A program made the position numbers and the translations under genes. The notes beneath the pieces are model-generated. The model had not been told where the DNA came from. It was given only the letters and a program-made list of their open reading frames with translations, and ran no database searches. This document shows, one piece after another, positions 1 through 64,000 of a DNA stretch of 64,000 nt (the stretch's first letter is position 1; each line of letters begins with the position of its first letter). Source of the DNA: Sulfurospirillum cavolei (GTDB taxonomy: Bacteria > Campylobacterota > Campylobacteria > Campylobacterales > Sulfurospirillaceae). The stretch covers positions 744,001 through 808,000 of the forward strand of contig NZ_AP014724.1 in the NCBI RefSeq assembly GCF_001548055.1. Reading direction: 5' to 3'.

Positions 1-493
1 TAAGGTTATTCGAAACGACGAGTTGAGCGTTGAAGAGATCGAAGCGTTGCATCCGGAAAAAATTATCATTTCCCCGGGGCCCGCAACTCCCAACGAAGCG
101 GGCGTGAGTTTGGACGTTATTCGATATTTCGGCGGTAAAATCCCTATTCTGGGTATTTGTCTAGGACACCAAGCTATCGGACAGGCGTTCGGGGCGAAAG
201 TCGTTCGCGCCAAACGTATGATGCACGGTAAAACTTCTCAAACCAAACAGCTTCACAACAGTTGTTTATTTGCAGGATTGCCTGAAGAATTTACGACGAC
301 ACGTTACCATTCGCTCATCGTGGAGCAAGAAGGGCTTCCCGAGTGTGTGATTCCTACGGCGTACAGTACCGACGACCACGAGATTATGGCGTTGCAAATC
401 AAAGATAAACCCATCTACGGCGTTCAGTTTCACCCCGAGTCTATTTTGAGTGAACACGGTCATGCCATTTTAAATAACTTTTTAAAACTATGA
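1..493 (+). CDS. trpG: Glutamine amidotransferase subunit of anthranilate/aminodeoxychorismate synthase (5' partial)
   Basis: The start lies before the window; the frame is open from base 2. About 163 codons show a class I glutamine amidotransferase: the SPGPATP motif, the nucleophile elbow [10 protein letters not shown] with its catalytic Cys, and the catalytic HPES near the C-terminus. This subunit hydrolyses glutamine and hands ammonia to TrpE or PabB, which act on chorismate. The sequence cannot tell TrpG from PabA, and one protein may serve both enzymes; a pabB homologue lies far away at about 53.8 kb. The stop overlaps the next start as ATGA, so translation of the two genes is probably coupled. 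Confidence 0.9.
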
Positions 494-1680
494 GAGAGCG
501 TCTTTTTCTCGGACTCATCTTACTTTTCAGTGCCGCGGCGTTGATGTTTGAGACGCAAACGCTTTCGATTAGCTACGACGAAGCCGAGATTTATTTCAAC
601 GCCCATACGATCGTGCATTATTTGGCGCATGCTTCGACGAGTCTTTTGGGACAAAATGATTTGGCGTTACGTTTGCCGTCCATCATTTTGCATTTACTTT
701 CGATCTTTTTGCTTTATAAAATCGGAAAATTATTTTTAAAAAGAACGATCGATCGCATTATCGCCGTGGCGATTTATGCGTTTCTTCCGGGCGTCAATAG
801 TGCGGCGTTACTGGTCAATCAAGGCAGTCTTGTCATCTTCTTAACGCTTCTTTTTACGTATTGCTATCTCAAAGAGTATAAAGTCGCTTCACATGTCATC
901 TTGATCGGCTCGCTTTTTGTCGATAATTCGTTTGCGATTTTTTACATTGCTTTGTTCATTTATGCGTTGATGCAGAAAAAAACCGACTTGGCGATTTTGA
1001 CGCTAATCTTGTTTAGTGCGGCGATGTATCTGTACGGTTTTGACACGGGAGGAAAGCCTAAGGGCTACTTCGTCGATACGCTCGGTATTTACGCGGCCGT
1101 ATTTTCCCCGTTGCTGTTTCTCTATTTTGTGTATGCGATGTACCGTATTTTGATTAAAGAAGAGAAAAATCTTCTATGGTACATCTCGTTTATCTCCTTG
1201 ATTGTTTCGTTTATTTTGTCGCTTCGTCAGCGTTTGGCATTGGAAGATTTTGCGCCGTTTGTCGTTTTGTCCGTTCCGTTGATGGTTAAAGTCTTTTTTA
1301 ACAGCTATCGCGTGCGCTTACCGCAATTTCGCAAATGGCATACTTTGGTCTTCGGGTTGATCCTGGCCACGCTTGTGTGCAATACGGTTTTAAGTTATTT
1401 ACACAAACCGCTATACTACTTTTTGGAAAATCCGTCGCGTAATTTTGCTATCAAATACCACATCGCTAAAGAGTTGGCGCAAGCTTTACATGAAAAAGGC
1501 ATCGATAAAATTATTCTCAAGGACGACAAACTCTCCTTGCGTTTGAAATTTTACGGTATTCAAAGCGGCGGTTTCGTCAAACTTAGCCCTCAAAAAGAGG
1601 TAGATGAAGGGTTTGAACAAATCGATATCGTTTATGTCGGAAAAGTCGTCAAAACATTTTACTTATACAGGCTAGGCTAA
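490..1680 (+). CDS. GT39-like multi-pass membrane glycosyltransferase, putative
   Basis: A 396-residue integral membrane protein with about nine hydrophobic segments. Right after the first helix comes SYDEAEIYF, which resembles the acidic first external loop of the dolichyl-phosphate-mannose mannosyltransferase/ArnT fold (GT39), where an Asp is catalytic. [20 protein letters not shown] also fits that family. Such enzymes move a sugar from a polyprenyl carrier onto a lipid or protein at the outer face of the inner membrane. The polar C-terminal 80 residues have no motif I recognise. It is coupled by ATGA to the amidotransferase upstream and sits 11 bp before a pilin gene. Donor and acceptor cannot be read from the sequence. 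Confidence 0.6.
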
Positions 1681-1691
1681 AAGAGGCTCGC

Positions 1692-2339
1692 ATGAAAAAA
1701 GCATTCACGATGTTGGAATTGGTTTTTGTCATTGTCGTCGTAGGCATTCTCTCCTATATGGTAGCCTCAAGCTTCACGCGCAACCCCCTCCGCGAAGCCG
1801 CCGATCAACTGGTAAGCCACATACGCTATACACAACACTTGGCGATGATGGATGATAAGTTTGATGTGAATGATGCAACTTGGTACCAGGAACGATGGCA
1901 AATAGTGTTTAACTCAGATGCTAATACTTATAATCAGTGGGCTTACACGATTTTTTCCGATGGCAATAAAAATGCAAATCCAAATCTTACGTTAAACGAA
2001 GTTGCTCTTAACCCTTTAGATCCTGCGAAATACCTTACTGGAGGATATACGGGAATTATTTTTTCTGACGGTGTAGGCGCTACGCAAGAGATGAATTTAG
2101 GAATGAAGTATGGAGTCTCTACAATAACTTTTAATGCGGCATGCCAGTTTGGCGGAAGCCAACGAATATCGTTTGATTATTTGGGACGGCCGCTTAAAGG
2201 AGTTCCTAGTGGATTTGGAGCAATTTACCAAAGGAATAGAATGATTACGGCTCAATGCCAGATCACATTAACCGATGTGTCCGGTAATGCAATCATTATT
2301 GCAATAGAACCGGAAACAGGGTATACGCATATTTTGTAG
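1692..2339 (+). CDS. Type II pseudopilin / prepilin-like protein
   Basis: A 215-residue protein with a class III signal: a short basic leader, then FTMLELVFVIVVVGILSYM, which has the invariant Glu at position +5 of the mature chain and a hydrophobic stalk. A PilD-type peptidase would cleave before the Phe, and the product would join a type II secretion or type IV pilus-like pseudopilus in the periplasm. The remaining 180 residues look like a globular head and contain two Cys. The first 45 codons match the neighbours in composition, while the part after about base 1840 is visibly richer in A and T. No other pilus gene is nearby, so the partner machine is unknown. Confidence 0.75.
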   Translation: MKKAFTMLELVFVIVVVGILSYMVASSFTRNPLREAADQLVSHIRYTQHLAMMDDKFDVNDATWYQERWQIVFNSDANTYNQWAYTIFSDGNKNANPNLTLNEVALNPLDPAKYLTGGYTGIIFSDGVGATQEMNLGMKYGVSTITFNAACQFGGSQRISFDYLGRPLKGVPSGFGAIYQRNRMITAQCQITLTDVSGNAIIIAIEPETGYTHIL

Positions 2340-2351
2340 CCTTTCTTTTCT

Positions 2352-2384
2352 TTAACCTTTTTTTAAGGAGTCTGGGTATATAAT
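2352..2384 (+). promoter_or_regulatory. rRNA operon 1 promoter
   Basis: A perfect TATAAT at 2379-2384 is preceded by TGGG and a T-rich block, with no good -35 box. That is typical of Campylobacterota sigma70 promoters. It lies about 270 bp before 16S and starts the region shared with operon 2. Confidence 0.6.
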
Positions 2385-2656
2385 TTCGTCCTCGTTTGAG
2401 AGAACGGGGTTAAAGAGAAGCCCCCAAAGTAGGGGATTAGCTTCACGTTCATTACCATTTTAACAATGTCAAATTCAATCTTTGAAATCTAAATAAGCGA
2501 CCGAGCTAGGACGCAAACATGTAAGAGATTATCAACTCTTCGGAATAAAAGAGATAAATCAAACTTCATTTATGAAGGATACAAAGGGCAGAAGCTTTGC
2601 TTCGTGCTTTAGTATTTGGTTCTTTAGCAAAGGTTTCCTTTGCGCTAAAAGAACAT
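2385..2656 (+). other. rRNA operon 1 leader with hairpins and boxA-like element
   Basis: Non-coding leader. It holds a GC-rich hairpin at about 2391-2409 (CCTCGTT against AACGGGG), a CCCC/GGGG hairpin just after, and a boxA-like GGTTCTTTAGCA at 2618-2629, close to the antitermination consensus TGCTCTTTAACA. A long imperfect inverted repeat at 2620-2653 lies immediately before 16S and is probably part of the RNA processing stem. One base (2456, C) differs from the second copy (9612, T). Confidence 0.5.
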
Positions 2657-4166
<1,510 letters not shown>

Positions 4167-4261
4167 CTAGAGTATAAGAGACACTATCTCACAATGGTGT
4201 CTCGGCGAGAATAGCTTGGTTGCTTATTTAGTTTTGAGAGATTGAAGAAATGAATGAAAAG

Positions 4262-4338
4262 GGGCTTATAGCTCAGGTGGTTAGAGCGTACCCCTGATAA
4301 GGGTAAGGTCAGAGGTTCGAGTCCTCTTAAGCCCACCA
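4262..4338 (+). tRNA. tRNA-Ile(GAT), rRNA spacer 1
   Basis: The acceptor stem GGGCTTA/TAAGCCC closes with an encoded CCA. The anticodon loop CTGATAA carries GAT at 4296-4298. It lies in the 16S-23S spacer, as in most bacterial rRNA operons, and is cut from the rRNA precursor. Confidence 0.95.
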
Positions 4339-4339
4339 T

Positions 4340-4415
4340 GGGGAATTAGCTCAGCTGGGAGAGCGCCTGCTTTGCACGCAGGAGGTCAGCGGTTCGATCC
4401 CGCTATTCTCCACCA
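4340..4415 (+). tRNA. tRNA-Ala(TGC), rRNA spacer 1
   Basis: The cloverleaf has acceptor GGGGAAT/ATTCTCC, anticodon stem CCTGC/GCAGG with TGC at 4373-4375, and an encoded CCA. Only one base separates it from tRNA-Ile. Confidence 0.95.
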
Positions 4416-4614
4416 TTTTTTATGGACATTGTAAAACGAGAGAAAGAAGTTTAATATCAGTTCTTACATGTAAGAGTTGATATTAGACTTTTTTAGTCTA
4501 AAGTTATTTAATTTAATATTGTCAAAGTCAACAAAACGCAAAAAAACAATTTACAACTTGTTGAATGTTTCATTACATTTAATAAGGGAGTGAAATGTGC
4601 ATTAGAATACAAAT
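4416..4614 (+). other. tRNA-Ala to 23S spacer, operon 1
   Basis: AT-rich spacer without genes. It contains the palindrome CTTACATGTAAG at 4463-4474, one of the window's recurrent ACATGT words, and a hairpin GACTTTTTTAGTC at about 4485-4498. Both probably belong to the processing stems for 23S. Confidence 0.5.
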
Positions 4615-7523
<2,909 letters not shown>

Positions 7524-7659
7524 TATATTAACGTATGATAATGCTATTTCACTTCCTTATTAAGTGTAAAGCGCTTTGTTGACAGACAATACTAAAATCA
7601 CCGAAAGAATGGTGAATTAAGCCTATTTCGCTATAATGCGACAATAGATTTAATTCACG

Positions 7660-7778
7660 ATTCTGGTGGCTATTGAGAAGAGGAAACGCCCTGTCCCATT
7701 TCGAACCAGGAAGCTAAGCTCTTCATCGCCGATAATACTCTCTCTTACTGAGATGGAAACGTAGGTCGCCGCCAGTTC
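7660..7778 (+). rRNA. rrf: 5S ribosomal RNA, copy 1
   Basis: A region of about 119 nt with the 5S signature CGAACCAGGAAGCTAAGCTC and a closing helix CTGGTGGC/GCCGCCAG. A further TCACGA/TCGTGA pairing outside it suggests the precursor stem reaches 7655-7784. A TATAAT lies upstream at 7632-7637, so 5S might also have its own start. Confidence 0.9.
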
Positions 7779-7784
7779 TCGTGA

Positions 7785-7990
7785 TTCCTTACTCTTTACC
7801 TTCTTGCCTATAATTCGTGTTTCATTTAATCACCGTTTCCTTTTTTAACTAACCTTATTCAATATCTTGTTTCCAGAATATATCTCTATATATCCATGTC
7901 TCATTCTGACGCTATATTTGTACGATTCCTCTATTCTTCTGTATATATACCTTCTCTTTCTATCTATAAAAATGATCTGGTTACACTAAA
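7785..7990 (+). other. Spacer between rRNA operon 1 and the IS element
   Basis: Non-coding and strongly pyrimidine-rich on this strand, with TATATATA-like runs near 7880-7955. I find no gene, tRNA or clear terminator. The last four bases (TAAA) are the left copy of the IS target duplication. Identity with operon 2 ends at base 7799. Confidence 0.6.
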
Positions 7991-8040
7991 TGATACACAG
8001 AGATGATAGAATTTCTGTAAATCATAAAGAGGATAAACGT

Positions 8041-9227: not shown

Positions 9228-9249
9228 ACATTTTCTTTTCTGTGTATCA

Positions 9250-9506: not shown

Positions 9507-9507
9507 T

Positions 9508-9540
9508 TTAACCTTTTTTTAAGGAGTCTGGGTATATAAT
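9508..9540 (+). promoter_or_regulatory. rRNA operon 2 promoter
   Basis: Same sequence as the operon 1 promoter, with TATAAT at 9535-9540. Identity between the two operons starts at 9507, so each operon keeps its own promoter. The upstream sequence differs and here is an A/T-rich tract that could act as an UP element. Confidence 0.6.
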
Positions 9541-9812: not shown

Positions 9813-11322
<1,510 letters not shown>

Positions 11323-11417
11323 CTAGAGTATAAGAGACACTATCTCACAATGGTGTCTCGGCGAGAATAGCTTGGTTGCTTATTTAGTTTTGAGAGATTG
11401 AAGAAATGAATGAAAAG

Positions 11418-15879: not shown

Positions 15880-16271
15880 AAAGATGGCTTTCTTTCGTGC
15901 TTGTATTGGCAAGTATGGCGCTTTCTTTAAATGCGGACTTCTTAGATATTGAACGCCAAAGAGCTTTAAAAGAGCATAAATTGATTCTTTTAAGCGTTGA
16001 GAAAGAGGGATGTCCGTATTGTTTGAAGATGCAAAAGGAGGTGTTTGGCGTTACAACATTCGATCAACACATCGCGCAGCACTATTTACATGTAAGCATT
16101 CATCAAGAAGATCCAGCGTTACCCAAAGCGTTACATGTCAAATATTTCCCAACAAATTTAGTCTTATCACCGAAGGATTTAAAGATTATCGATGAGTTTG
16201 CAGGGTATATGGCACCCGAGAGCTTTATCGAGCTCTTAGATGAAGTGTACGCGCAGGAGTTTAAGCCCTAG
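15876..16271 (+). CDS. Periplasmic thioredoxin-like protein (CPYC)
   Basis: 131 residues: an N-terminal signal peptide (about residues 1-20, ending LSLNA), then a thioredoxin fold with the redox motif CPYC at Cys46 and Cys49, and a cis-Pro region KYFPTNLVL. This layout fits SoxW/thioredoxin_2-type periplasmic reductases. It is coupled to the DMT transporter by ATGA, but the functional link is unclear. Two ACATGT words fall inside it (16088 and 16133). Its 3' end overlaps a convergent gene by 11 bp. Confidence 0.75.
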   Translation: MKRWLSFVLVLASMALSLNADFLDIERQRALKEHKLILLSVEKEGCPYCLKMQKEVFGVTTFDQHIAQHYLHVSIHQEDPALPKALHVKYFPTNLVLSPKDLKIIDEFAGYMAPESFIELLDEVYAQEFKP

Positions 16272-24067: not shown

Positions 24068-24205
24068 TCTAAAACCTTTGCGTAAGATAATCTCTATTGT
24101 ACATGTAAGATGCTAAAGAGTGCTTTACATGTCAAAAGTGCTGAAACGATTAAGCGGTGCTGTGGTATGTTTTGAAAGAGTGTTTCCAAAGACGAGGATA
24201 AATCG

Positions 24206-24852: not shown

Positions 24853-24904
24853 GCTACGCCTTTTTTTGACATGTAAAAGTGTAGCATGAAATAAGGCAGT
24901 ATGC

Positions 24905-25670: not shown

Positions 25671-27626
25671 ATGAAGCATACGCTTAAAATCACGCTTTTT
25701 TATTTGGTCATGTTTGTCAGTCTCGGGCTTTTTTGGTTTTGGGCGGCAAAACCTTCCGATTCTCTTGTAACGCTTCCCGAGGACGTCAAGCTTCAATGCC
25801 TCTCTTACGCGCCTTTCGGGAAAGACGATTCGCCGTTTGATATTCCAAACGGGTTTAAGCCTTCGCTTGAACAGATGGACAAAGATTTGGCGCATTTGGC
25901 GACGATTACGGGGTGTATTCGAACGTATTCGAGCGTCGGGCTGGAGGCGTTACCCGAAATTGCCCGCAAGCACGGGCTGAAACTTTGGTTGGGTGCATGG
26001 GTCAGCAGTGATGCGAGTTTGACGAAAAAAGAGATCGAAACCGTGATCGCGCTTGCGCAAGAGAACAAAGACATCGTCGAGACCGTCGTCGTCGGCAATG
26101 AAGCGTTATTGCGCCGCGACGTGAGTGCGTCTCAGTTGGTCGCGTATATTCAAAGCGTTAAAGAGGCGTTGCCCGATATGACGATCACGTATGCCGACGT
26201 ATGGGAGTTTTGGAACAAACATCCCGAAGTCGCACCCGCGGTCGATCGCGTGACGATACACATTTTGCCGTATTGGGAAGATAAGCCTATTAGCGTCGAT
26301 AAAGCACTCTTACATGTCAAAGCGATTCGCGAAGCGATGATGCAAAAAATCCCCGACAAAGAGATCGTCATCGGTGAGACGGGTTGGCCGAGTTTCGGGC
26401 GAATGCGCGAAGGTGCTTACCCGAGTGCGGAAAATCAAGCGATTTTTACGCGCGGTTTTGTGAAAATGGCGCAAGAAGGCGGATGGAAATACAACTTTAT
26501 CGAGGCGTTTGACCAACCGTGGAAACGTGTGAGTGAGGGTGCGGTCGGCGGTTATTGGGGACTTTTTGACGCAGATCGCGCGGATAAACATATCTTGCAC
26601 GGATTTGTGAGCAATTATCCGTACGCGCAATGGATGTTTGCGGGAAGTTTTGCTTTAAGTTTGCTCGGGTTGATTTGGCTGGTGCGTATCCAGACGTGCG
26701 CATGTAAAAAAGCGGCGTATTGGTTTGTAAGTTTGTGGGGCGGATCGGTAGCGCTTGTGTGGCAAGCGTATCAGTATTGGATGGTTTCGAGAAATACCCT
26801 TGAGGTCGTTTGGGCGATTTTGTGTTTGGGGCTTGCGTTGATCTTATGGCTCAAAATCGTACGCTACGTGATGACCGAAGAGATGGTTTTTCCGGCACGT
26901 ATGAGCCGTTTGATGTCGGTCGTAACGCTTAGCGAGCCGTTTCAAAAAAGCTTTTTTGCGCATGATCTGTTGCATACGCTCAGCAGCGGCGTTGCTCTTG
27001 TCATGGCACTTTCGATGGCGTTTGACGGACGCTACTTGAATTTCGAGATCGGAACGCTCGGCATCATTACGGCATTTTACGCGATCGCGTATGTGACGAC
27101 CGATCGCAAAGCGTTGAACGGGCTTTTAGAAAAAGTGACGGGCTTGGCACTTTTTATCGCCGCATTGGCGGTACTTTTACACGAAAGCGCACGCAACGAT
27201 TTTGCGCTCAATTGGGTGGTTATGATGGTCGTTTTAGGCTCGACTTTATGGCTTTCCTTGTCTAAAATGTGTGGAATAGTCCGAACGTTCTCGTTTTTGC
27301 TCGTTGCGGCATTGGCGATTTTTGCACTTAAAGAGGGAATTTACGTGAACGAAAAATGGATCGACGTATGCGCGAGCAATCCTTCTCTTTTAACATGTCA
27401 GTTCAAAGTTTGGTTAGGTAAGATCATTTACCTCAATTACGTCGGACTTTCAGGTAGCGTCGTTGCCCTATTTGCCGTGCTCTCGGGCAGTTATCTTTTA
27501 GGCGTGCTCGCGATGGTGATGGGACTGTTTGGTTTGCTAACGTTTAATGGATTTTTAGGCGCGATTCTGGTCGTTTTGGGTTGGTGGGTCGTCGGATACC
27601 GTTTGGGCGAAAAATGTACGTTATAA
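25671..27626 (+). CDS. GH17-domain membrane protein (beta-1,3-glucan-active, putative)
   Basis: 651 residues. One N-terminal helix (about 8-28) leads to a periplasmic TIM-barrel domain (about 40-310) of glycoside hydrolase family 17. The acid/base Glu lies in VVGNEALLR (near E144) and the nucleophile Glu in IGETGWPSFG (near E236). About eight membrane helices fill residues 320-650. The same GH17 domain occurs in NdvB-type cyclic beta-glucan synthases, where it acts as transglycosylase. Here no GT2 synthase is adjacent; alaS follows after 105 bp. It may trim or rearrange a periplasmic or surface glucan, but the substrate is not proven. Confidence 0.75.
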   Translation: MKHTLKITLFYLVMFVSLGLFWFWAAKPSDSLVTLPEDVKLQCLSYAPFGKDDSPFDIPNGFKPSLEQMDKDLAHLATITGCIRTYSSVGLEALPEIARKHGLKLWLGAWVSSDASLTKKEIETVIALAQENKDIVETVVVGNEALLRRDVSASQLVAYIQSVKEALPDMTITYADVWEFWNKHPEVAPAVDRVTIHILPYWEDKPISVDKALLHVKAIREAMMQKIPDKEIVIGETGWPSFGRMREGAYPSAENQAIFTRGFVKMAQEGGWKYNFIEAFDQPWKRVSEGAVGGYWGLFDADRADKHILHGFVSNYPYAQWMFAGSFALSLLGLIWLVRIQTCACKKAAYWFVSLWGGSVALVWQAYQYWMVSRNTLEVVWAILCLGLALILWLKIVRYVMTEEMVFPARMSRLMSVVTLSEPFQKSFFAHDLLHTLSSGVALVMALSMAFDGRYLNFEIGTLGIITAFYAIAYVTTDRKALNGLLEKVTGLALFIAALAVLLHESARNDFALNWVVMMVVLGSTLWLSLSKMCGIVRTFSFLLVAALAIFALKEGIYVNEKWIDVCASNPSLLTCQFKVWLGKIIYLNYVGLSGSVVALFAVLSGSYLLGVLAMVMGLFGLLTFNGFLGAILVVLGWWVVGYRLGEKCTL

Positions 27627-32426: not shown

Positions 32427-33118
32427 GCTTTACATGTCAGCGTTTAACGATCCGCCATCAAGAACACGTTCTTGTCGACACGGCGTTTTCGTTTGAACGC
32501 TCGTTTGCTCTGATCGGGCAAAGCGGCAGTGGAAAAAGTTTGACGCTCAAAGCACTTTTGGGGATGTTGCCTCAAGCCTTGGACGTGACGTTGGAGTATC
32601 ACGCTTCGTATGAACTCGTTCGCGGTCATACGGTCGCATTTGTTCCTCAAAACCCGTTTACGGCACTCTCTCCCTTAACCAAAATAGGGCGGCAATTTCT
32701 TCGGGACGAAGCCAAAACAAACGCCTATTTAGAAATGGTCGAACTGGATCCTGCTTTAGCCAATCGCTTTCCTTCCGAACTCAGCGGCGGGCAATTGCAA
32801 CGTATTTGTATTGCGATGGCACTTTCTTTGGAGCCGAAACTCTTGCTTTTAGACGAACCGACGACGGCGTTGGACGAAGAGAGCAAAGAGACCGTATTGC
32901 GCTTGATACGGCGGTTGCAAAACGTTTACGGTTTTGATATGCTTTTTGTCACGCACGATATCGAAACCATTCGCAACGTGTGCGACGAAGTCGGTATTTT
33001 ACAAAACGGACGATTGATCGAGCAAGGGCGCGGTTCGGACATTTTTTCGTCTCCGAAAGAAGCCTATACGCAAGCCTTATTTGCTTCCGGATTTAAACAA
33101 AGGAGTTTTAGAACGTGA
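32423..33118 (+). CDS. ABC transporter ATP-binding protein (dipeptide/nickel-type)
   Basis: 231 residues from the TTG that overlaps the bioF stop (TTGA). It has Walker A GQSGSGKS, Q-loop FVPQNP, signature LSGGQLQR, Walker B LLLLDEPT and H-loop FVTHD. The helical region and the VGILQNGRLIEQGRGSDIF end fit the DppD/NikD-OppF group, yet no permease or binding protein is nearby, so its partners must be encoded elsewhere. It overlaps the PBP1A start by 4 bp. TTACATGTCA sits a few bases inside the start. Confidence 0.85.
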   Translation: MSFTCQRLTIRHQEHVLVDTAFSFERSFALIGQSGSGKSLTLKALLGMLPQALDVTLEYHASYELVRGHTVAFVPQNPFTALSPLTKIGRQFLRDEAKTNAYLEMVELDPALANRFPSELSGGQLQRICIAMALSLEPKLLLLDEPTTALDEESKETVLRLIRRLQNVYGFDMLFVTHDIETIRNVCDEVGILQNGRLIEQGRGSDIFSSPKEAYTQALFASGFKQRSFRT

Positions 33119-41539: not shown

Positions 41540-42258
41540 TGCGCTTAGGCGAGATTTACGACTTTCTAGACGCCTTAAGCCCCTTTGCGACGCAAGCTTC
41601 TTGGGACAACAGCGGTTTACTGATCGGAACGCGATCCGATGCCATCGAGCGTATCTATTTAAGTCTCGACGTTGATCGCGCTTTGGTCGAAGCGGCGGAA
41701 AAACACTCGTTGATTATCACGCATCATCCGCTCATTTTTAGCGGCTTGAAACAGCTCGATTTTTCGCGTTATCCGTCAAATTTGATTCAAACAATCGTAC
41801 AGAAAAATATTGCGTTGATTGCAATGCACACCAATTTCGATCTTTCACATCTCAATGCGTACGTCGCTCGAAAATTGGGTTTTGAGATTGCGCTGACGAA
41901 AGATTTCGTGGCGTATTGCGACGTCGATGAAAGTTTTGAAGCTTTGACATGTAAGGTTAAAAACGCCTTAGGGATAAAGCACCTGCGCGTCGTTCAAACC
42001 TGCGAACACGTTAAGCGTTGCGCGTTAACGACGGGTGCCGGCGGAGATTTGATCCGCACCGTCGAGGCCGATTGTTTTCTAACGGGCGATTTAAAATACC
42101 ATCAAGCTTTAGAAGCCAAAGAAAACGGGCTTAGTTTAATCGACATCGGACACTTTGAGAGTGAAGCGTATTTTGGGGCGTGTTTAAGTGAGCATTTGAA
42201 AAATTTGCCATTAAAAGCTATAATATCAAATTCTAAAAACCCCTTCCAACACATATAG
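41539..42258 (+). CDS. Nif3-like dinuclear metal-centre protein
   Basis: 239 residues from the ATG that shares a base with the glyQ stop. Metal-ligand motifs of the Nif3/YbgI family: LIITHHPLIFSG near residue 60, MHTNFD near 96, then ETGAGGD-like TTGAGGDLIR and the late GHFESE. The family forms hexamers with two metals per subunit; its reaction is unclear (GTP cyclohydrolase-like folate activity has been suggested for some). Confidence 0.85.
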   Translation: MRLGEIYDFLDALSPFATQASWDNSGLLIGTRSDAIERIYLSLDVDRALVEAAEKHSLIITHHPLIFSGLKQLDFSRYPSNLIQTIVQKNIALIAMHTNFDLSHLNAYVARKLGFEIALTKDFVAYCDVDESFEALTCKVKNALGIKHLRVVQTCEHVKRCALTTGAGGDLIRTVEADCFLTGDLKYHQALEAKENGLSLIDIGHFESEAYFGACLSEHLKNLPLKAIISNSKNPFQHI

Positions 42259-50755: not shown

Positions 50756-51619
50756 ATGAAACACAAAAGAACGACTCAAAACGACCATATCGAGCGTATC
50801 AACGAAACGTTGTATACGATTCATGCCGACTTGTCGCAAAATTTAAGCGTCGAAACCTTGGCGGGTAACGTTGCGATGTCGGTCTTTCATTTTAACCGCA
50901 TTTTTAAAGAAGTCGTCGGCGAGAGTGTTCATGCGTATGCGAAGCGCGTCAAACTCGAACATTCCGCCAACGTGTTACTTTTCACGCCTGAGGCAACGAT
51001 TACGCATATTATGCGCGAAGTCGGATTTCACTCCAATGCTTCTTTTACGCAGGCTTTTAAAGAAAACTTCGGTGTTACGCCCAGTAAATGGCGCGAAGTC
51101 GACCAAATCAATGCTCATCGCGATTTGAGTTTCTCGGGGAAACCCTTACATGTCAAAGTGGCGGCGATGCCTTCGTTTGAGGTTGCCTACGTTCGGCATA
51201 AAGGTTACGACAAGAGCATTCAAACCGCATGGTTAAAACTTCAGGCGTGGGCATTGCAAGAGGGTATCGCATTTAACGCGCAAACCATGATCGCCCTACA
51301 CCATAGTAATCCGCGTTTTGTCGAGGCTTCCAAATGCCATTACGTTGCGTGTCTAGAACTTCCCAAAACACGCAAATTTTACCGAAGCGGCGAAATCGGC
51401 GTAATGAAAATACCGCAAACCTTTTGTGCCATTTTCTCGTTGCAAGGCGTCTACGGCGACTTGAAAAAGTATATGGACGTCATTTACCATGAATGGTTTC
51501 CTAAAAGCGATTATGAAAAAGTCTCGTTACCTTCGTTTGCGATCTATCGGCAAAACCACTTCATCGATCCGTGCGAACGTTTCGACCTCGACTTTTGCGT
51601 TCCCGTACGGTTTAAGTAA
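50756..51619 (+). CDS. AraC-family regulator with GyrI-like effector domain
   Basis: 287 residues. N-terminal double helix-turn-helix (about 8-110): LSVETLAGNVAMSVFHFNRIF, then HIMREVGFHSNASFTQAFKE and FGVTPSKWR. Residues 130-285 form a GyrI-like small-molecule-binding domain (AAMPSFEVAYVRHKGYD at its start; FDLDFCVPV at its end). This is the Rob/SoxS-with-effector layout that senses drugs or hydrophobic ligands. Likely targets include the divergent aminotransferase. Confidence 0.87.
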   Translation: MKHKRTTQNDHIERINETLYTIHADLSQNLSVETLAGNVAMSVFHFNRIFKEVVGESVHAYAKRVKLEHSANVLLFTPEATITHIMREVGFHSNASFTQAFKENFGVTPSKWREVDQINAHRDLSFSGKPLHVKVAAMPSFEVAYVRHKGYDKSIQTAWLKLQAWALQEGIAFNAQTMIALHHSNPRFVEASKCHYVACLELPKTRKFYRSGEIGVMKIPQTFCAIFSLQGVYGDLKKYMDVIYHEWFPKSDYEKVSLPSFAIYRQNHFIDPCERFDLDFCVPVRFK

Positions 51620-53812: not shown

Positions 53813-54752
53813 GTTCGTTCAAACGCTCAATCGCTTCGGACAACAACGTACGCCTTTTTTCTTTGTCGTCGATTATAACATTAAACAGTTTTATGCCCAA
53901 GCGCTTCAAACGCTTGATCCGGATATTTTGTATGCGCTCGATGCCGAGTGCCCTTCTTTGAAACAGACGTTTACGTTTGAAAAATCGTTTCCGGATTTTC
54001 ACAATTACCTTCGCAAAATCGAGGCGGTTCAAGAAGCGATACGCTCGGGTAATACCTACCTTCTCAATTTGACCGCACCGACGTTGTTGCACGGCGATTT
54101 AGACCTTCGTGCGATTTTTCATGCGGCAAATGCGCCGTTTAAACTCTGTTTCAAAGATCGGTTCGTCTGCTTTTCGCCCGAACGTTTCGTCAAAATCGAA
54201 AACGATTGCATTATGGCGTATCCGATGAAGGGAACGATCGATGCGAGCATTGATAATGCGAAAGAACGTATTTTAAACGACGAAAAAGAAAAAGCCGAAC
54301 ATGTGATGGTCGTCGATCTTTTACGCAACGATCTTGCACGCGTCGCGACAAACGTCCGTGTCAAGCGTTTTCGTTACGTCGAGGCTATCCAAGCAGGCGA
54401 AAAAGAGCTTTTACATGTCAGTTCGCATATTAGCGCGTGCTTAGAGCCGACATGGCATGATCGTATCGGCGAGATTATCGCCGATTTATTGCCGGCGGGG
54501 TCGATTAGCGGAACGCCGAAACGAAAAAGCGTCGAGTTGATCGAACAAATCGAAGGCTATGAACGCGGCTTTTTTACCGGAATTTTCGGCGTATACGACG
54601 CAAAAGGGCTGGACAGTGCGGTGATGATCCGTTTTATCGAAAAAACCGATGAAGGGTTTGTCTACAAAAGCGGCGGAGGAATCACGCTTTTAAGCGATCC
54701 GCTAAAAGAGTACGAAGAGGTGTGCCATAAAGTCTATATCCCCGTGCTTTGA
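53802..54752 (+). CDS. pabB: Aminodeoxychorismate synthase component I (PabB domain)
   Basis: 316 residues from a TTG inside the pyrB end. Chorismate-binding core: [61 protein letters not shown] and [15 protein letters not shown], with Glu and Lys residues as in the TrpE/PabB family. It aminates chorismate using ammonia from a PabA/TrpG subunit, toward folate. The stop is CTT TGA, and the PabC domain continues one base out of frame, so the gene looks like a split PabBC fusion. Confidence 0.88.
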
Positions 54753-55308
54753 AACGATCAAGGCCGTTGATGGCACGTTATTGCATTTGGAGTACCATCA
54801 AGCCCGCTTCGATCAAACGAGGCGAGCACTGTTTACATGTCAAGAGCCGATCGCGCTTTCACGAGCGATCATTCCGCCTTGCCGCGGCGTTTTTCGGGTG
54901 CGCGTCGAATACTGTGAAACGATTACGCACATCGACTACCGCGCGTACGAACCTACACCGATCCAGACGATCGCTTTGGTCGAAAGCCCGCTTGCGTACG
55001 ACTACAAATATTGCGATCGCGAAGCGTTGAATCTGCTGAAACGCGACGATACCGATGAGGTGTTGATCGTTCGTCACGGCGAATTAAAAGATACGACGAT
55101 TGCCAATATCGCTTTATGGATCGACGGCGAATGGAAAACGCCTTTGTGTCCGCTTTTAGAAGGAACGACACGGGCAAGATTGCTGGCACAAGGGAAGATT
55201 AAAGCCGAAAGTTTATCCGTAGGAGACATTCAAAAAGCCCGAAAATTTGCTATAATGAATGCTCTTAGAGGATTTGAAATTCTTGAAAACGTATGTGTGA
55301 AGGATTAA
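54751..55308 (+). CDS. pabC: 4-amino-4-deoxychorismate lyase (PabC) domain, probably expressed as PabBC by frameshift
   Basis: The class IV aminotransferase domain reads from [20 protein letters not shown], which begins at the pabB stop, in the +1 frame. It includes the conserved DEVLIVRHGELKDTTIANIA and PLLEGTTRARLL. There is no ATG, GTG or TTG in this frame between an upstream stop (54703) and TTG 54781; starting there would remove the first strand and no ribosome site precedes it. Hence fusion to PabB by a +1 shift, a real frameshift mutation, or a base error is likely. PabC releases p-aminobenzoate and pyruvate. Confidence 0.75.
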   Translation, partial: ETIKAVDGTLLHLEYHQARFDQTRRALFTCQEPIALSRAIIPPCRGVFRVRVEYCETITHIDYRAYEPTPIQTIALVESPLAYDYKYCDREALNLLKRDDTDEVLIVRHGELKDTTIANIALWIDGEWKTPLCPLLEGTTRARLLAQGKIKAESLSVGDIQKARKFAIMNALRGFEILENVCVKD

Positions 55309-55311: not shown

Positions 55312-57033
55312 TTGAATTGGGATTTATCCGCTTTATACAAGCACGAATCTGACTTAGAAGCAGATTTGAACGAGGCACGAAATCGTGCGATCGGTTTTGA
55401 GAACGTCTGCAAAGGCAAGCTCAAAGAGCTGAGCGGTCACGAATTTTTAGAATCGATTCGTGAGTACGAGGCGATTAACGAGATTTTGGGTCGCATTATG
55501 ACGTATGCTTTTTTAAACTTTGCGACCGACAGCGACAAAGGCGGTTTTTTCGCCCGTTACCAGCAAGAACAAAGTCGTATCGGCGAGCATTTGCTTTTTT
55601 TCGAACTTGAATTTAACAAACTAACAAAAGCCAAACAAGAAGAACTCATCGCGCTAAGCCCGCATTACGCCTTTTATTTGGAATCGCTTATCGAAGAAAA
55701 ACCCTATCAGCTTTCTCAAAAAGAAGAGCGTATTTTATTGAAAAAAGAGATGACGTCCGCTTCGGCGTTTAGCCGTTTGTTCGATGAACACTTTAGCCGG
55801 TTGACGTTTACCTTTGAAGGTCAAAAGCTCTCCGAAGAAGAGATTCTCAGTAAGCTTCAAGACCCTTCCCGCGAGGTGCGTAAAAAAGCTGCCGACGTTT
55901 TTACGAAAGGCTTAAAACCCCATCAGCCGTTGTTAGCGTATATTTTTAACATGATCAAAACCGATTTGGCAAGCGAATGTGAACTTCGCGGTTATAAAAA
56001 TGCCGAACAACCACGCCATTTGGACAATAAAATCACGCAAAAAAGCGTTGATGCGCTCATCGCCGCCGCCGAAAACAGTTTCCACCTCGTGCATGAATAT
56101 TATGCGTTGAAAGCCAAGCTTTTGGGATTGGAAACGTTGTACGAGTACGATCGTTACGCACCTTTGGAAGAGAGCAAGGCGTGCTATGATTTTGAAAACT
56201 CGAAACAGATCGTCTTAGACGCGTTTGCCAAATTTAATCCCAAATTTTACGAGATCGCTTCAATGGCATTTACGCAAGGTTGGATCGACGTTTTCCCTCA
56301 AACGAAAAAACGCGGCGGCGCATTTTCGCATCCGGCGACGCCTAGCACGCATCCGTACGTGTTGCTCAACCACACCGATACGCGACGTGATCTGTTTACC
56401 TTGGCGCACGAGCTTGGGCATGCGATTCATCAGTATCTTTCTCGCGACGTCGGTTATTTAGGCAGCGATACGCCCTTAACGACCTCCGAAACCGCTTCGG
56501 TTTTTGCCGAAATGCTTGTTTTCGACGCCATTAAAGAGGGATTGAGCTTAGACGAAAAACGCTCTTTATATGCCAGTAAAATCGAAGATATTTTTTCAAC
56601 GCTTTACCGTCAGATTAACTTTACGACGTTTGAGCGCAAAGTGCATGCGCATGAAGGCGAATTGGATACGGCAACGTTCAATCGTTACTGGATGCAAGAG
56701 AGTCAAAAAATGTTCGGTTCGAGCATTACGCTGAGTTCCAACTATCATTTGTGGTGGAGTTATATTCCGCATTTTATTCATTCTCCGTTTTATTGCTACG
56801 CTTACAGTTACGGGCAATTGTTGGTACTTGCGTTGTTCGGTCTGTATAAAAAAAGCGATAAAGCGACGTTTGTCCAACACTATACGAGTTTTTTAAGTGC
56901 CGGAGGAAGTCAAAGTCCTAAGACGTTGATTCAAAAGTTCGGATTTGACATCGACGACGAGCGTTTTTGGCTTTTGGGTATCGGCGAAATCGAAAACTTA
57001 CTCCAAGAATTCAAAGGAATGTGCGATGCTTGA
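55312..57033 (+). CDS. pepF: Oligoendopeptidase F (M3 family)
   Basis: 573 residues from a TTG. The zinc motif HELGH sits near residue 366 (TLAHELGHAIHQ), with the downstream Glu in SETASVFAEMLVF. The PepF N-terminal segment WDLSALY is present. A cytoplasmic metallopeptidase that degrades oligopeptides. It overlaps the next gene by 8 bp. Confidence 0.94.
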   Translation: MNWDLSALYKHESDLEADLNEARNRAIGFENVCKGKLKELSGHEFLESIREYEAINEILGRIMTYAFLNFATDSDKGGFFARYQQEQSRIGEHLLFFELEFNKLTKAKQEELIALSPHYAFYLESLIEEKPYQLSQKEERILLKKEMTSASAFSRLFDEHFSRLTFTFEGQKLSEEEILSKLQDPSREVRKKAADVFTKGLKPHQPLLAYIFNMIKTDLASECELRGYKNAEQPRHLDNKITQKSVDALIAAAENSFHLVHEYYALKAKLLGLETLYEYDRYAPLEESKACYDFENSKQIVLDAFAKFNPKFYEIASMAFTQGWIDVFPQTKKRGGAFSHPATPSTHPYVLLNHTDTRRDLFTLAHELGHAIHQYLSRDVGYLGSDTPLTTSETASVFAEMLVFDAIKEGLSLDEKRSLYASKIEDIFSTLYRQINFTTFERKVHAHEGELDTATFNRYWMQESQKMFGSSITLSSNYHLWWSYIPHFIHSPFYCYAYSYGQLLVLALFGLYKKSDKATFVQHYTSFLSAGGSQSPKTLIQKFGFDIDDERFWLLGIGEIENLLQEFKGMCDA

Positions 57034-57481
57034 CGCTTTATTGGGGGACGAAGAGTTTTGTCAATTGATGAAGAAGCACGGTAAAGAGATGGTAGAGTTG
57101 CTTTTAAAGCGAGGCGTTCATTTTTCCGTTTTGACCAATATCGCCGATGTGACGTTTGAGCCGGAACTTCCGCCTGAAATTCGACAAAATTTTAAACCCA
57201 TTACGATGTTTTATTTGGCAGGTTATACGTTTGAAAGTACGCAGGTATATAACGGGACGATCAGTTTTGAAGCGGGATTCGGAAGCCATAATTTCGGCTC
57301 TTTGGTGACGTTCCCGTTGGAGTCGATTTTACAAATTATCGTCGAGGAAGTGCCTATTTTTATCAACCTCGGTACTGCTTCTAGCAAAAAAGCACCCAAA
57401 GAAGACAAATCAAACGGGCTTCAACGCTCCATGAGCGCGTTCCTCTCCAATCCCCACAATCAAAAATTGATTAAAAAATAA
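57026..57481 (+). CDS. Conserved hypothetical (Cj1100-like)
   Basis: 151 residues from the ATG at 57026 inside the pepF end. No signal peptide. It contains PELPPEIRQNFKPITMF, a mixed alpha/beta middle, and a hydrophobic ESILQIIVEEVPIFINLG. I do not recognise the family, but the position after pepF and before the helicase seems kept in Campylobacter. Confidence 0.65.
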   Translation: MLDALLGDEEFCQLMKKHGKEMVELLLKRGVHFSVLTNIADVTFEPELPPEIRQNFKPITMFYLAGYTFESTQVYNGTISFEAGFGSHNFGSLVTFPLESILQIIVEEVPIFINLGTASSKKAPKEDKSNGLQRSMSAFLSNPHNQKLIKK

Positions 57482-57561: not shown

Positions 57562-58467
57562 TTAGTTCTTGAGCTCTTGTTTGCTCATAATGTAATTAAT
57601 GACGTTATCGATCAAAGCATCGTGTTTGCGGTCTTTGATATGGCAAAGATAGAGCATTCGCGTGAGTTTAAGCCCTTTCATTTTCGTCGTAAACAGTAAG
57701 CCTTGCTCGACCTCTTCGCTGATAATATGTTTCGAGAGAATCGATACGGTCGGCTTTTCTTCGATGTTGGCTTTCATGAGCGTATTTTTGACGGCGGTCG
57801 AACTTGTGACGATACTTTTGACCTTAAAGCTTTTGCAATCGATGTCCATCTTCTCAAACGTTTCGTGAATAATTTTACGCGTGTTGGACTCCTCTTCGCG
57901 ACAAATCCAATTGTAGGAGAGTAAATCTTCTTTGCGAACGATTTTGGGAAGCGGGGAACGGCTGGTAATGACCAATTCGTCTTCAAGCCATTCGCGATAG
58001 ATAATCCCTTCTTGGAAGATCGGTGCTTCGATCAATGCCAAATCGATTTTTTTATCGAGCAGTTTTTCGGTAATACCCGCGGCGTCTTCAACTTTCAGCA
58101 TCACGTTGTTTTTAATCGCTTCTTGGATGTCGTTGAGAAAGTTGGGCAGGATATAATTTCCGATGACGGGAGAGGCTCCCAAGACAAAAATAACCTCTTT
58201 GTTGACGAGGCGTAACATCTCGCGTTCCGCCGCTAAAATCTGTTTTTCGAGTTTAACCGCGACCTTGAAAAGTTCTTCTCCTGCGGTCGTTAATTTAATG
58301 CCGTTTTTTTTACGATCGACGATTTGCAAGTCCAGATACTCTTCTAAAAGCTTAATTTGTTGCGTAACGGCGGGTTGACTGATGCCGAGTTTTTTAGAAG
58401 CTTTTGAAAAGCTTTTTTCGCGAACGACCGTCAAAAAGGTTTCTATTTTAGAGAAATCTTTTAACAT
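57562..58467 (-). CDS. LysR-family transcriptional regulator
   Basis: 301 residues from ATG 58467 (MLKDFSKIETF). Winged helix at 3-62 (FSKASKKLGISQPAVTQQIKLLE), linker helix, then a LysR substrate-binding domain (about 90-295) with VILGASPVIGNYILP-type start. Regulators with this layout in Campylobacterota include CysB- or selenium/sulfur-type controllers, but nothing fixes the ligand. It is divergent from the helicase gene. Confidence 0.88.
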   Translation of the reverse strand: MLKDFSKIETFLTVVREKSFSKASKKLGISQPAVTQQIKLLEEYLDLQIVDRKKNGIKLTTAGEELFKVAVKLEKQILAAEREMLRLVNKEVIFVLGASPVIGNYILPNFLNDIQEAIKNNVMLKVEDAAGITEKLLDKKIDLALIEAPIFQEGIIYREWLEDELVITSRSPLPKIVRKEDLLSYNWICREEESNTRKIIHETFEKMDIDCKSFKVKSIVTSSTAVKNTLMKANIEEKPTVSILSKHIISEEVEQGLLFTTKMKGLKLTRMLYLCHIKDRKHDALIDNVINYIMSKQELKN

Positions 58468-58597
58468 AAAAATCCTTGTATTTTCGTAGTGTATAACCGT
58501 GCTTCGTTTGAGCATTTTATTATAACCAAAAATAATAGTAAAAACAATGACGACCTGCTTTGCGCGCTCTTTAGAGGTTTGCTTAAACTTTTTTTGC

Positions 58598-61511: not shown

Positions 61512-61732
61512 TACTTACACGAAAAACCGGCGAGGGCATCGTTTTAAACGACAACGTCACGATACGCGTCGTTGAAATTTCCAAAGGCGTCGTGAAACTC
61601 GGTTTCGATGCGCCCAAAGAGACGTTGATTTTGCGTGAAGAGTTAGCGCGCGCCATCAAGCAAAGCAACATTGAAGCCAGTCGACATGTCGAAACGGAAC
61701 TGCTTTTAAGTCTCAGCCAAAAGCTCAAATAA
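61505..61732 (+). CDS. csrA: Carbon storage regulator CsrA
   Basis: 75 residues: MLILTRKTGEGIVLNDNVTI is the CsrA N-terminus. It is a dimeric RNA-binding repressor that blocks ribosome sites carrying GGA; in Campylobacter it controls flagellin mRNA and is antagonised by FliW. The start codon lies within an ACATGT word at 61503. It overlaps truB before it and ispE after it. Confidence 0.96.
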   Translation: MLILTRKTGEGIVLNDNVTIRVVEISKGVVKLGFDAPKETLILREELARAIKQSNIEASRHVETELLLSLSQKLK

Positions 61733-62505
61733 TGCACTATTTTGCTCACGCTAAAGTCAATATTTTTCTGAAAATCGTCGGTACGCGCGGAAACTATCAC
61801 GAACTTTATTCCCGATTTATGCGCGTTCGCGATCTGTACGACACGCTTTCTTTCGTCCCGAAACAAACGACGCAAGCGTTTGAATTGGTCGGTGATTTTA
61901 ATTGTGCGCTCGAACACAATACGCTTTACAAAATCTATCGCGTTTTGCAAGAGCAGGGATTTTCCAAAGAGATCGAGCGCGTGATGCAAACGTACGCCTT
62001 ACATGTCAAGAAACAAATTCCAACAGGAGCGGGTCTTGGCGGCGGAAGCAGCGACGCGGCAACCTTTTTACGGATGCTAAACGACAGGGCAGGGCTTTTC
62101 TTATCGAACGAAGAGATGATGCGTATCGGCTCGAGCGTGGGAGCCGACGTCGCTTTTTTCGCCTCTGGCTATGAAAGTGCCAACGTCAGTGGCATCGGCG
62201 AAACTGTCTCATTATACGAAGAAGAGGCGTTGGAGCTTGAGGTTTTCACGCCCGATCTCGCATGCGACACCGCACGCGTCTATACGACTTTTCGGGAGTT
62301 TTTTTTAGCGTCGATCGCACCGCAAGACGCTTTGCCTATGCTTTCGTGCAAAAGCGCGGAGCTTTTAGCGTCGTATGAACCTCAAAGGCTCAACGACTTG
62401 TACGCCGCGTGTTTAAAAGCCTACCCTGAGCTTCCGACGATGGCAAACGAAGGATGGTTTTTTAGCGGTAGCGGCAGCAGTTTTTTTCGAATCAAAGCAC
62501 ACTAG
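61732..62505 (+). CDS. ispE: 4-diphosphocytidyl-2-C-methyl-D-erythritol kinase
   Basis: 257 residues. GHMP kinase motifs: AHAKVNIFLKIVGTRGNYHE near the start and the glycine loop PTGAGLGGGSSDAATFL. It phosphorylates CDP-ME in the MEP isoprenoid pathway. The start shares a base with the csrA stop. Confidence 0.94.
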   Translation: MHYFAHAKVNIFLKIVGTRGNYHELYSRFMRVRDLYDTLSFVPKQTTQAFELVGDFNCALEHNTLYKIYRVLQEQGFSKEIERVMQTYALHVKKQIPTGAGLGGGSSDAATFLRMLNDRAGLFLSNEEMMRIGSSVGADVAFFASGYESANVSGIGETVSLYEEEALELEVFTPDLACDTARVYTTFREFFLASIAPQDALPMLSCKSAELLASYEPQRLNDLYAACLKAYPELPTMANEGWFFSGSGSSFFRIKAH

Positions 62506-62983: not shown

Positions 62984-63038
62984 TTTACATATTATTTATA
63001 TAAAGCATGTAGAATTTTGAAAAAATGAGGATGATCTT

Positions 63039-63644
63039 ATGAAACATTTCTTACGACTTTTTTTGACAATAATGTCACTCACGTTTTTTGTCGGTTGCGA
63101 TTCTTCGACTCCCAAAGCGTCGCCTAGCGTCGTCGAACCGTTTAAAAACGGCGATAAAGTCGAGCTCAAAAGCGTTTCGGGCGCGAAAATAACGCTTTTG
63201 CGCCAAAACGGCGGATTTGTGATTGAAGACGATGAAGAGAAGATTCTTATGTTTGATATCTTCGGTACGTTTTGTGCACCTTGCCAAGAAGAAGCTCCTT
63301 CCTTGATGGACTTTCAGTTGCAAAACAGCGACAACGTGATGTTAATAGGTCTCAACTTCTTTGAAGAGGTGAGCGACGAGTACGTGGTCGAAAATTTCGC
63401 CGCGAAATACAACGCCTATTATTTTATCAGCAACGCCGCTGCCAATAAGCGTTTGGTCGAGACGATTTTGCGTGATATTCAGTATAAAGCGACGTTGCAA
63501 GTCCCTTTTAAAGTCGTTCTGAAAAAAGGCGTTTATCAAAACGTTCGGGATATTTACACGAATCTTCCCGACACTAAATTTTACATCGGTAAAGTCGGTT
63601 TGGACGTGATTCAACGCGACATCGACCGTATCGTGGAAAAGTAG
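63039..63644 (+). CDS. TlpA-like thioredoxin-fold lipoprotein
   Basis: 201 residues. A signal peptide ends in a lipobox FFVGC with the lipidated Cys at position 20. The thioredoxin fold shows FGTFCAPCQEEAP with the redox pair near Cys79 and Cys82. It probably faces the periplasm from a membrane anchor and reduces or isomerises disulfides, as in cytochrome c maturation. It precedes clpS as in C. jejuni (Cj1106, from memory). Confidence 0.82.
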   Translation: MKHFLRLFLTIMSLTFFVGCDSSTPKASPSVVEPFKNGDKVELKSVSGAKITLLRQNGGFVIEDDEEKILMFDIFGTFCAPCQEEAPSLMDFQLQNSDNVMLIGLNFFEEVSDEYVVENFAAKYNAYYFISNAAANKRLVETILRDIQYKATLQVPFKVVLKKGVYQNVRDIYTNLPDTKFYIGKVGLDVIQRDIDRIVEK

Positions 63645-63650
63645 GAAAAT

Positions 63651-63962
63651 ATGCATTCAAAGGCGCAAGGGGAAGTTCAAAACGACACTGCCGAGGCGAT
63701 CAGGGTTCAAGAGCCTAAACTCTATAAAGTTTTGCTTTTAAACGACGATTACAGCAGTATGGATTTTGTGATTAAAGTCTTGATGCAAGTCTTTCATCAT
63801 CGTTTTGAAAAAGCTGCCGAAATTATGTTAAACGTGCACGAACAAGGCAAAGGCTTATGCGGCGTTTACGTTTACGAAATCGCCGAAACCAAAGTGGCAC
63901 GCGTGCGCAAAATGGCGAAAGAGGAAAAATTTCCTCTTCGCGCCGTCATGGAAGAAGATTGA
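63651..63962 (+). CDS. clpS: ATP-dependent Clp protease adaptor ClpS
   Basis: 103 residues: YKVLLLNDDYSSMDFVIKVL and HEQGKGLCGVYVYEIAETKV are the ClpS core that holds N-end-rule residues and delivers them to ClpA. The clpA start follows after 11 bp. Confidence 0.95.
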   Translation: MHSKAQGEVQNDTAEAIRVQEPKLYKVLLLNDDYSSMDFVIKVLMQVFHHRFEKAAEIMLNVHEQGKGLCGVYVYEIAETKVARVRKMAKEEKFPLRAVMEED

Positions 63963-63973
63963 AAGGATGAAAA

Positions 63974-64000
63974 ATGGTTAGCCAAGAACTCAACTTCGTT
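63974..64000 (+). CDS. clpA: ClpA ATPase start (3' partial)
   Basis: Only nine codons fit in the window: ATG then VSQELNFV, preceded by AAAGGATG. Assigned to ClpA from its place after clpS and from the SQEL-type N-terminus; too short to prove. Confidence 0.6.

Follow-up and report, generated by a model that had tools for sequence, protein, structure and literature searches.

A highly iterated, ACATGT-centred word of Sulfurospirillum cavolei linked to a D12-class adenine methyltransferase

Results

A ten-base word recurs across the window

The window analysed here is a 64,000-nucleotide stretch of the Sulfurospirillum cavolei genome (G000), positions 744001-808000 of one contig of 2,698,323 bases, and the element under study is a short word, TTACATGT(A/C)A, that occurs in both its genes and its gaps. 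Its hexameric core, ACATGT, is present 49 times, slightly more than the approximately 45 copies given by an earlier sequence-only reading of the same DNA. All eight copies of the palindrome TTACATGTAA and all ten copies of the related form TTACATGTCA, counted on both strands, start exactly where that reading had placed them. Its estimate that chance gives well under one of each agrees with 100 dinucleotide shuffles of the window, which yielded means of 0.04 for TTACATGTAA and 0.07 for TTACATGTCA; none of the 100 reached the observed counts. The most frequent 8-mer of the window is ACATGTAA (n = 37, word and complement pooled). Two of the TTACATGTAA copies, at 4464 and 11620, lie 7156 bases apart in two ribosomal RNA (rRNA) operons with identical surroundings, so that there are seven independent TTACATGTAA loci rather than eight.

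The excess is genome-wide and is not caused by protein coding

Expectations were calculated on a 464-kb sample of the genome, consisting of the window and 20 stretches of 20 kb. Against an order-2 Markov model, ACATGT was found 354 times (63.5 expected) and TTACATGTAA 64 times (0.44 expected). Within the open reading frames (ORFs) of the sample there are 36 TTACATGTAA, 35 TTACATGTCA and 251 ACATGT, compared to 1.25 (maximum 5) and 2.36 (maximum 7) for the two ten-base words in 100 synonymous-codon shuffles, and 84 for the hexamer. Protein coding is thereby ruled out as the cause of the excess, and the counts lie far above the codon-shuffled expectation against which the sequence-only reading had asked for them to be judged.

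The complete G000 genome contains 411 TTACATGTAA, and its relatives up to 1496, against 1-9 copies of the backward control word. The degenerate form TTACATGTMA is balanced between strands, with 563 forward and 570 reverse copies (backward control, 3 and 2), and its forward counts range from 68 to 1503 over the 24 genomes of the genus, G000 included. At least 90 copies of TTACATGTAA are present in 26 of 298 genomes of the order: 17 from the genus, six from other genera of the family and three from family f17. The remaining 272 have 0-10 copies, except seven with 12-49. By alanyl-tRNA synthetase (AlaS) comparison the closest named relatives are L001 (Sulfurospirillum, 95%) and L005 (S. diekertiae JPD-1, 89%).

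The sequence-only reading stated that many copies lie in genes. This is fair by ORF counts, since 3 of 8 TTACATGTAA and 6 of 10 TTACATGTCA in the window fall inside automatically called ORFs (ATG start, at least 100 amino acids), or 2 of 8 and 7 of 10 for ORFs of at least 150 amino acids, but it is the non-coding DNA that is enriched. Word density is higher outside genes than inside, and across the 20 stretches it is 2.91 per kb in convergent gaps, 0.63 in co-directional gaps and 0.55 in divergent gaps (12, 15 and 6 sites). Spacing in the 464 kb is Poisson-like overall, with a coefficient of variation of 1.03 and 9 of 98 gaps shorter than 100 bases; the even spacing expected of an architectural site was rejected on this coefficient. 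In one 20-kb stretch (L100) the ten-base word is missing, yet ACATGT occurs 17 times. The word is therefore over-represented, strand-balanced and dispersed, as DNA uptake sequences are, and it is also a palindrome whose excess throughout the genome goes beyond codon and composition effects, as is that of words of the highly iterated palindrome (HIP) type.

A D12-class adenine methyltransferase is tied to the word

The sequence-only reading had named a methyltransferase as one possible partner of the word, and genome comparison supports this. G000 encodes, outside the window, a D12-class adenine methyltransferase of 335 amino acids (G000:C1:269305-270312; PF02086, E 1e-47), and enzymes of approximately 320-335 amino acids are found in many relatives. 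Copies of TTACATGTAA number 411-1496 in the 14 tabulated genus genomes that have the enzyme, whereas those without it have 49 (G010), 934 (G013), 238 (G017) and 412 (G021; Mann-Whitney p 0.006, uncorrected for kinship). Across the order, the enzyme is detected at E < 1e-90 in 20 of the 26 word-rich genomes (90 copies or more) and in 56 of the 272 others (Fisher p 1e-8, likewise uncorrected for kinship). The six word-rich genomes without an enzyme match are G013, G017, G021, G110, G143 and G266. A β-class methyltransferase (PF01555) was rejected as the partner because 22 of the 51 genomes searched, including G000-G007 and G011, gave no match.

Fourteen enzymes of the genus form one clade, and those of G000 and G014, 88% alike, fall in another. 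The enzyme tree was built without G202, whose frame is broken by a stop, and the AlaS tree without G023, whose AlaS is in pieces; G012, G018 and G019 were scored as incomplete assemblies for the enzyme. A Pfam scan of five neighbouring proteins (G000, G004) gave four with other functions, namely a two-component pair, a CheY-like protein and a transglutaminase-like protein, and one without a match. No nuclease or restriction gene was seen among the examined neighbours of the enzyme in G000, G001, G004 and G014, distant nucleases not having been searched. A sequence search of solved structures at E 0.01 found no match to the enzyme. With NCBIfam, three of four enzymes had matches below threshold only, and the Campylobacter jejuni one had none.

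The core is fixed and the outer letters vary

Near-misses were tabulated for 24 of the 30 counted genomes, those with a perfect-match count (not G012, G015, G018, G019, G020 and G022), and controls were scaled by the simple share of positions, 0.6 for the core and 0.2 for positions 2/9. In the G000 sample, single-letter variants number 40 at position 1 and 78 at position 2, compared to a pooled 8 for the core, where chance gives approximately 9.5. In each of the 14 tabulated enzyme-positive genomes of the genus, the surplus of core variants amounts to 0.01-0.05 of the perfect copies. Variants at positions 1/10 are frequent in the enzyme-positive genomes (116-367), and those at positions 2/9 number 18-52 in 12 clade-A genomes (control share 17-27), 411 in G000 and 235 in G014. 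The difference lies largely in TTACATGTCA, with 311 copies in G000 and 187 in G014, compared to a range of 7-37 for the 12 genomes of clade A. Deviants thus lie at the outer positions of a fixed core, as is the case for cyanobacterial HIP1, and this anatomy is new for the present word.

Among the enzyme-less genomes of the genus, core decay is 2.11 in G010, 0.71 in G017, 0.24 in G021 and 0.03 in G013. In the AlaS tree, G010 and G017 are together and group with G001 and G008, which have 1127 and 1056 copies, and G021 pairs with G022, whose sole D12 match is shorter and of another kind. The core therefore decays in two enzyme-less lineages, comprising three genomes, and not in G013. Beyond the genus, the core excess is 0.15 in G110 and G143, which have no D12 match, and 0.14 and 0.18 in the enzyme-bearing G121 and G233. 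Taken together, the tie between the D12-class enzyme and the word is well supported.

Individual sites are conserved between species

Of the ten named loci L001-L010, five were used to examine site-by-site conservation, giving 20 ordered, non-independent pairs of five species. Of 196 aligned TTACATGTAA sites, 172 agree at every base, 3 differ by a single mismatch and 21 by at least two, and a further 32 sites did not align; control palindromes of similar composition are identical in only 14 of 94 cases. Identity is 0.92-0.98 within the ten bases and averages approximately 0.75 in the flanks, where single positions range from 0.54 to 0.96. The window itself was compared with 8 of the 10 loci. 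Four of its seven sites align to the S. diekertiae locus, and all four are kept (three identical, one in the other form). In the reverse direction, 10 of 12 S. diekertiae sites align to the window, with four perfect, three with the core kept, two with the core lost and one gapped, an asymmetry which indicates that the lineage of the window has lost or altered sites that others retain. It is well supported that selection keeps the word in place and that each site is actively maintained where the D12 enzyme is present. The claim that the DNA and not the protein is selected accordingly has both the codon shuffles and this conservation behind it.

Other CATG-centred words accompany the same enzyme family

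Different CATG-centred words are over-represented in genomes with the same enzyme family. ATCATGAT is found 43 times in G064 (2.9 expected) and 18 times in G059 (5.4 expected), and TTCATGAA 14 times in G178 (0.7 expected) and 7 times in G114 (0.5 expected), as well as in L021; L020 and L050, scored for the word only, have it likewise. The samples of G089, G231, G042 and G289, of only 6-12 kb, were not used as evidence in these counts. In family f7, where all 22 drawn genomes were used, TCATGA is more frequent over the whole genome with the enzyme (230-1236 per Mb, n = 11) than without it (225-579 per Mb, n = 11; p 0.008, uncorrected for kinship); G148, with the enzyme in two pieces, was counted as having it, and G137, with a match of E 2.9e-61 only, as lacking it. 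A code for the flanks was looked for in the enzyme tree and not found. The enzyme is not sufficient for a word, because the carriers G045, G047, G061 and G106 have CATG at 0.38-0.47 of expectation and no word, a depletion that would suit a true restriction pair.

In S. diekertiae, the plasmids pSDCE1 and pSDIE1 (38-40 kb) each contain four TTACATGTAA, and the JPD-1 chromosome locus has 11 in 22.5 kb. A methyltransferase of this family is encoded on pSDCE1 itself (L283:1692-2732), adjoining an IS21 element, and may reflect a plasmid adapted to the mark of its host.

Three further observations concern palindromes of the order. G027 has 76 TCATGA in 3.0 Mb against 293 of the backward control although a methyltransferase is present, as if CATG were restricted. 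In genus g49 of family f14 the backward control AGTACT is itself nearly absent (5-11 copies) in 7 of 11 drawn genomes, a signal of avoidance. A survey of loci of at least 8 kb found another highly iterated palindrome, TTGGCCAA, in the Campylobacterales metagenome-assembled genome (MAG) L076 (12 against 1.6 expected in 13 kb).

The Campylobacter jejuni methyltransferase is a distant relative

The methyltransferase aligns over nearly its full length with a C. jejuni D12 enzyme (BLASTP, 30% identity, E 3e-36), and both have the same best PADLOC model, PDLC03257. The C. jejuni ORF is very likely CtsM/Cj0208, as it is the only D12 match in that genome and the gene length fits. Cj0208 is described as M.CjeNI, with 27,280 RAATTY motifs in strain NCTC 11168 (PMC4889913), and RAATTY methylated by CtsM as required for DNA uptake (PMC10046745). 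RAATTY was over-represented in all four Campylobacter loci under an order-2 Markov model (observed/expected 220/47, 66/21.5, 203/118 and 164/101.5) and near expectation in two other loci tested (47/43 and 25/21.5). In the Campylobacter MAGs L058 and L059, RAATTY reaches 3-5 times the order-2 expectation, compared to 1.6 times in the C. jejuni locus L080. Of the competence machinery only the channel ComEC was searched; its domain is present in 40 of 41 genomes, and the one genome without a match is an assembly of 86% completeness. ComEC content was rejected as the cause of word-poor genomes, G010 having ComEC.

Positions of the window copies

Table 1. The 18 ten-base copies in the window. Positions are those of the window; strand is given for the non-palindromic form.
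Word	Position	Strand	Context
TTACATGTAA	4464..4473		first rRNA operon, between tRNA-Ala and 23S
TTACATGTAA	11620..11629		second rRNA operon; not independent of 4464
TTACATGTAA	16086..16095		convergent gap, ORFs 14989-15879(+) / 16261-17145(-)
TTACATGTCA	16131..16140	+	convergent gap, ORFs 14989-15879(+) / 16261-17145(-)
TTACATGTAA	23440..23449		within ORF 23117-24067(-)
TTACATGTAA	23800..23809		within ORF 23117-24067(-)
TTACATGTCA	24125..24134	+	divergent gap, ORFs 23117-24067(-) / 24206-24691(+)
TTACATGTCA	24867..24876	-	convergent gap, ORFs 24206-24691(+) / 24905-25465(-)
TTACATGTCA	26310..26319	+	within ORF 25671-27626(+)
TTACATGTCA	32430..32439	+	within ORF 32396-33118(+)
TTACATGTAA	40656..40665		short gap, ORF end 40652 to next ORF start 40682
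TTACATGTCA	41945..41954	-	within ORF 41506-42258(+)
TTACATGTCA	51146..51155	+	within ORF 50738-51619(+)
TTACATGTCA	54411..54420	+	within ORF 53802-54752(+)
TTACATGTCA	54833..54842	+	within ORF 54781-55308(+)
TTACATGTAA	57529..57538		first of close pair, convergent gap, ORFs 56945-57481(+) / 57562-58515(-)
TTACATGTAA	57542..57551		second of close pair, convergent gap, ORFs 56945-57481(+) / 57562-58515(-)
TTACATGTCA	61999..62008	+	within ORF 61732-62505(+)

Two further features of the window are recorded here. Two ACATGT in inverted orientation (ATCTACATGTAGACTGACATGTAGAT, 46405-46430) directly follow ORF 45052-46389 and could form a hairpin. The two rRNA operons are complete and form a direct repeat at 2351-14933 (spacing 7156), with an IS3-type integrase ORF at 8355-9227 between them.

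Discussion

We regard TTACATGT(A/C)A as a highly iterated, methyltransferase-coupled word, for which a methylated self-label in natural transformation is the likeliest role, an assignment in which our confidence is about even. The D12 enzyme would methylate the adenine of the ACATGT/CATG core, and a second, sequence-reading protein would prefer methylated cores with TT...AA flanks, accepting in G000 a relaxed half opposite a strict TT half. The likeliest reader would be the natural-transformation machinery, such that uptake and recombination favour DNA of the same kind, and this biased uptake would spread and repair the word. Such a mechanism would resemble that of CtsM and RAATTY in C. jejuni, with a longer and rarer word. 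The kinship with the C. jejuni enzyme, the RAATTY excess and the presence of ComEC lead us to prefer it, as do the dispersal of the word, its balance between strands and its density in convergent gaps, the uptake step being argued from these parallels. The two systems share the order, a related D12 enzyme, a palindromic target and its over-representation (in the Campylobacter loci). They differ in that RAATTY is short and very frequent while the Sulfurospirillum word has ten bases and hundreds to 1500 copies, and in that methylation-dependent uptake is described for C. jejuni and predicted here.

Several observations weigh against a methylated self-label. Core near-misses are nearly absent, which is tighter than a slow uptake drive would be expected to produce. 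The Pfam search gave no D12 match in G013 (934 copies, core intact), G110 (567) or G143 (340), and of the 272 genomes below 90 copies, 56 have a close relative of the enzyme. TTACATGTCA also occurs in the enzyme-less G021 (112 of 183 position 2/9 variants, 61%) and G017 (48 of 80, 60%), a predominance that plain decay does not explain. Flanks do not agree with the enzyme tree, G123 (with TACATGTA) and G217 (with TCATGA) having neighbouring enzymes, and pSDCE1 and pSDIE1 hold TACATGTA 14 and 13 times, with only four TTACATGTAA each. The Campylobacter RAATTY excess is only 1.2-2.4 times under an order-1 model, and ComEC is non-discriminating, as it is present in the word-poor G010.

A methyltransferase-marked word of the HIP1 type that plays no part in uptake, but serves chromosome maintenance (strand choice in repair, recombination or replication) or arises as a side effect of methyl-directed mismatch repair, is a possible explanation that we hold to be somewhat unlikely. 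It is a close rival because the near-misses, with variable outer letters and a fixed core, resemble those described for HIP1 (GCGATCGC) and the alternate HIPs (PMC4390886). The tight maintenance of each site and a density of one word per 2-6 kb also suit it. Further likenesses are a genome-wide palindrome excess, a word longer than the methyltransferase site it encloses, and alternate words in some relatives. A matching methyltransferase generally accompanies a frequent HIP word (PMC4390886), and the D12 enzyme, in 20 of the 26 word-rich genomes, is a candidate counterpart. The present word differs in its phylum, its AT-rich flanks, a D12 adenine enzyme in place of GATC/CGATCG methyltransferases, and dialects that share CATG. 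The function of HIP1 words is described there as little known, the by-product or maintenance role being a proposal by Elhai for cyanobacteria (PMC4390886). Elhai's ratchet uses MutS and MutL, which C. jejuni and Helicobacter pylori seem to lack (Sulfurospirillum was not searched): a review reports both proteins absent from some pathogens, and a row of its table fits these two species if its columns run in the order we infer (PMC2734928). The viability of G010 without the enzyme and with 49 copies also argues against a maintenance function.

A classical DNA uptake sequence that is unmethylated and recognised by a pilin receptor, its association with the methyltransferase being coincidental, is improbable. 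The uptake words of Neisseria and Haemophilus are likewise dispersed over both strands, genes and gaps and differ in dialect between relatives, and the present word is dispersed, strand-symmetric, dense in convergent gaps and kept by G013, G110 and G143 without a D12 match. Those classical words, however, are asymmetric, not palindromic, and are not known to be tied to a methyltransferase, in contrast to the palindromic core and methyltransferase found here; the core decays in the enzyme-less G010, G017 and G021, and the other dialects in enzyme-bearing genomes are also CATG-centred. That the word is the remnant of a restriction-modification system, in which CATG is cut and only well-protected contexts survive, is very unlikely. 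Several genomes have fewer off-dialect CATG hexamers than expected (TCATGA, 7 against 25.9 expected in the G145 sample), and in H. pylori a methylase of CATG accompanies the nuclease IceA1 (PMC4450513). Restriction would be expected to give avoidance, as in the four CATG-depleted carriers, and not an approximately 100-fold excess, no restriction gene was seen among the enzyme neighbours examined, and restriction avoidance was rejected as the explanation on the CATG-hexamer counts. The H. pylori enzyme M.HpyI (hpyIM) is comparable by its described target, CATG, the centre of the dialects found here, and differs in adjoining an IceA1-type nuclease (PMC4450513), none being seen beside the Sulfurospirillum enzyme. 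Enzymes strongly matching profile A1 occur in family f14, which probably corresponds to Helicobacter. Least credible of all is a chromosome-organising or transcriptional site (nucleoid protein, terminator or regulator), the former of which the sequence-only reading had considered. The convergent-gap excess and close pairs such as 57529/57542 would fit such a site, but many copies lie within genes, spacing is Poisson-like, the word has little direction because it is nearly palindromic, and word-poor relatives exist, among them G010 with a complete genome.

No description of this word was found in the titles and abstract openings of the open-access papers listed, and the main text of Elhai mentions neither Sulfuro-, Campylobacter nor ACATGT (PMC4390886). 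What is new is the fixed core with variable flanks, the link to the D12 enzyme, the CATG dialects of relatives and the distant kinship to the Campylobacter methylase. Extending the self-label reading, we tentatively suggest that D12 enzymes across the Campylobacterota write, and a transformation receptor reads, species-specific CATG words (TTACATGTAA, TTACATGTMA, ATCATGAT, TTCATGAA), with RAATTY as another dialect. HIP1-type palindromes and uptake words might then be one phenomenon, methylated self-labels kept by biased uptake and lost with the writer.

Depending on the species, the word is present, shifted in dialect or decaying, and because these states largely follow one enzyme, cause and effect can be tested by gene removal. 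Dehalogenating members of Sulfurospirillum are useful for clean-up, and if the self-label reading is true, it would give a hint on how DNA should be labelled for transforming these bacteria.

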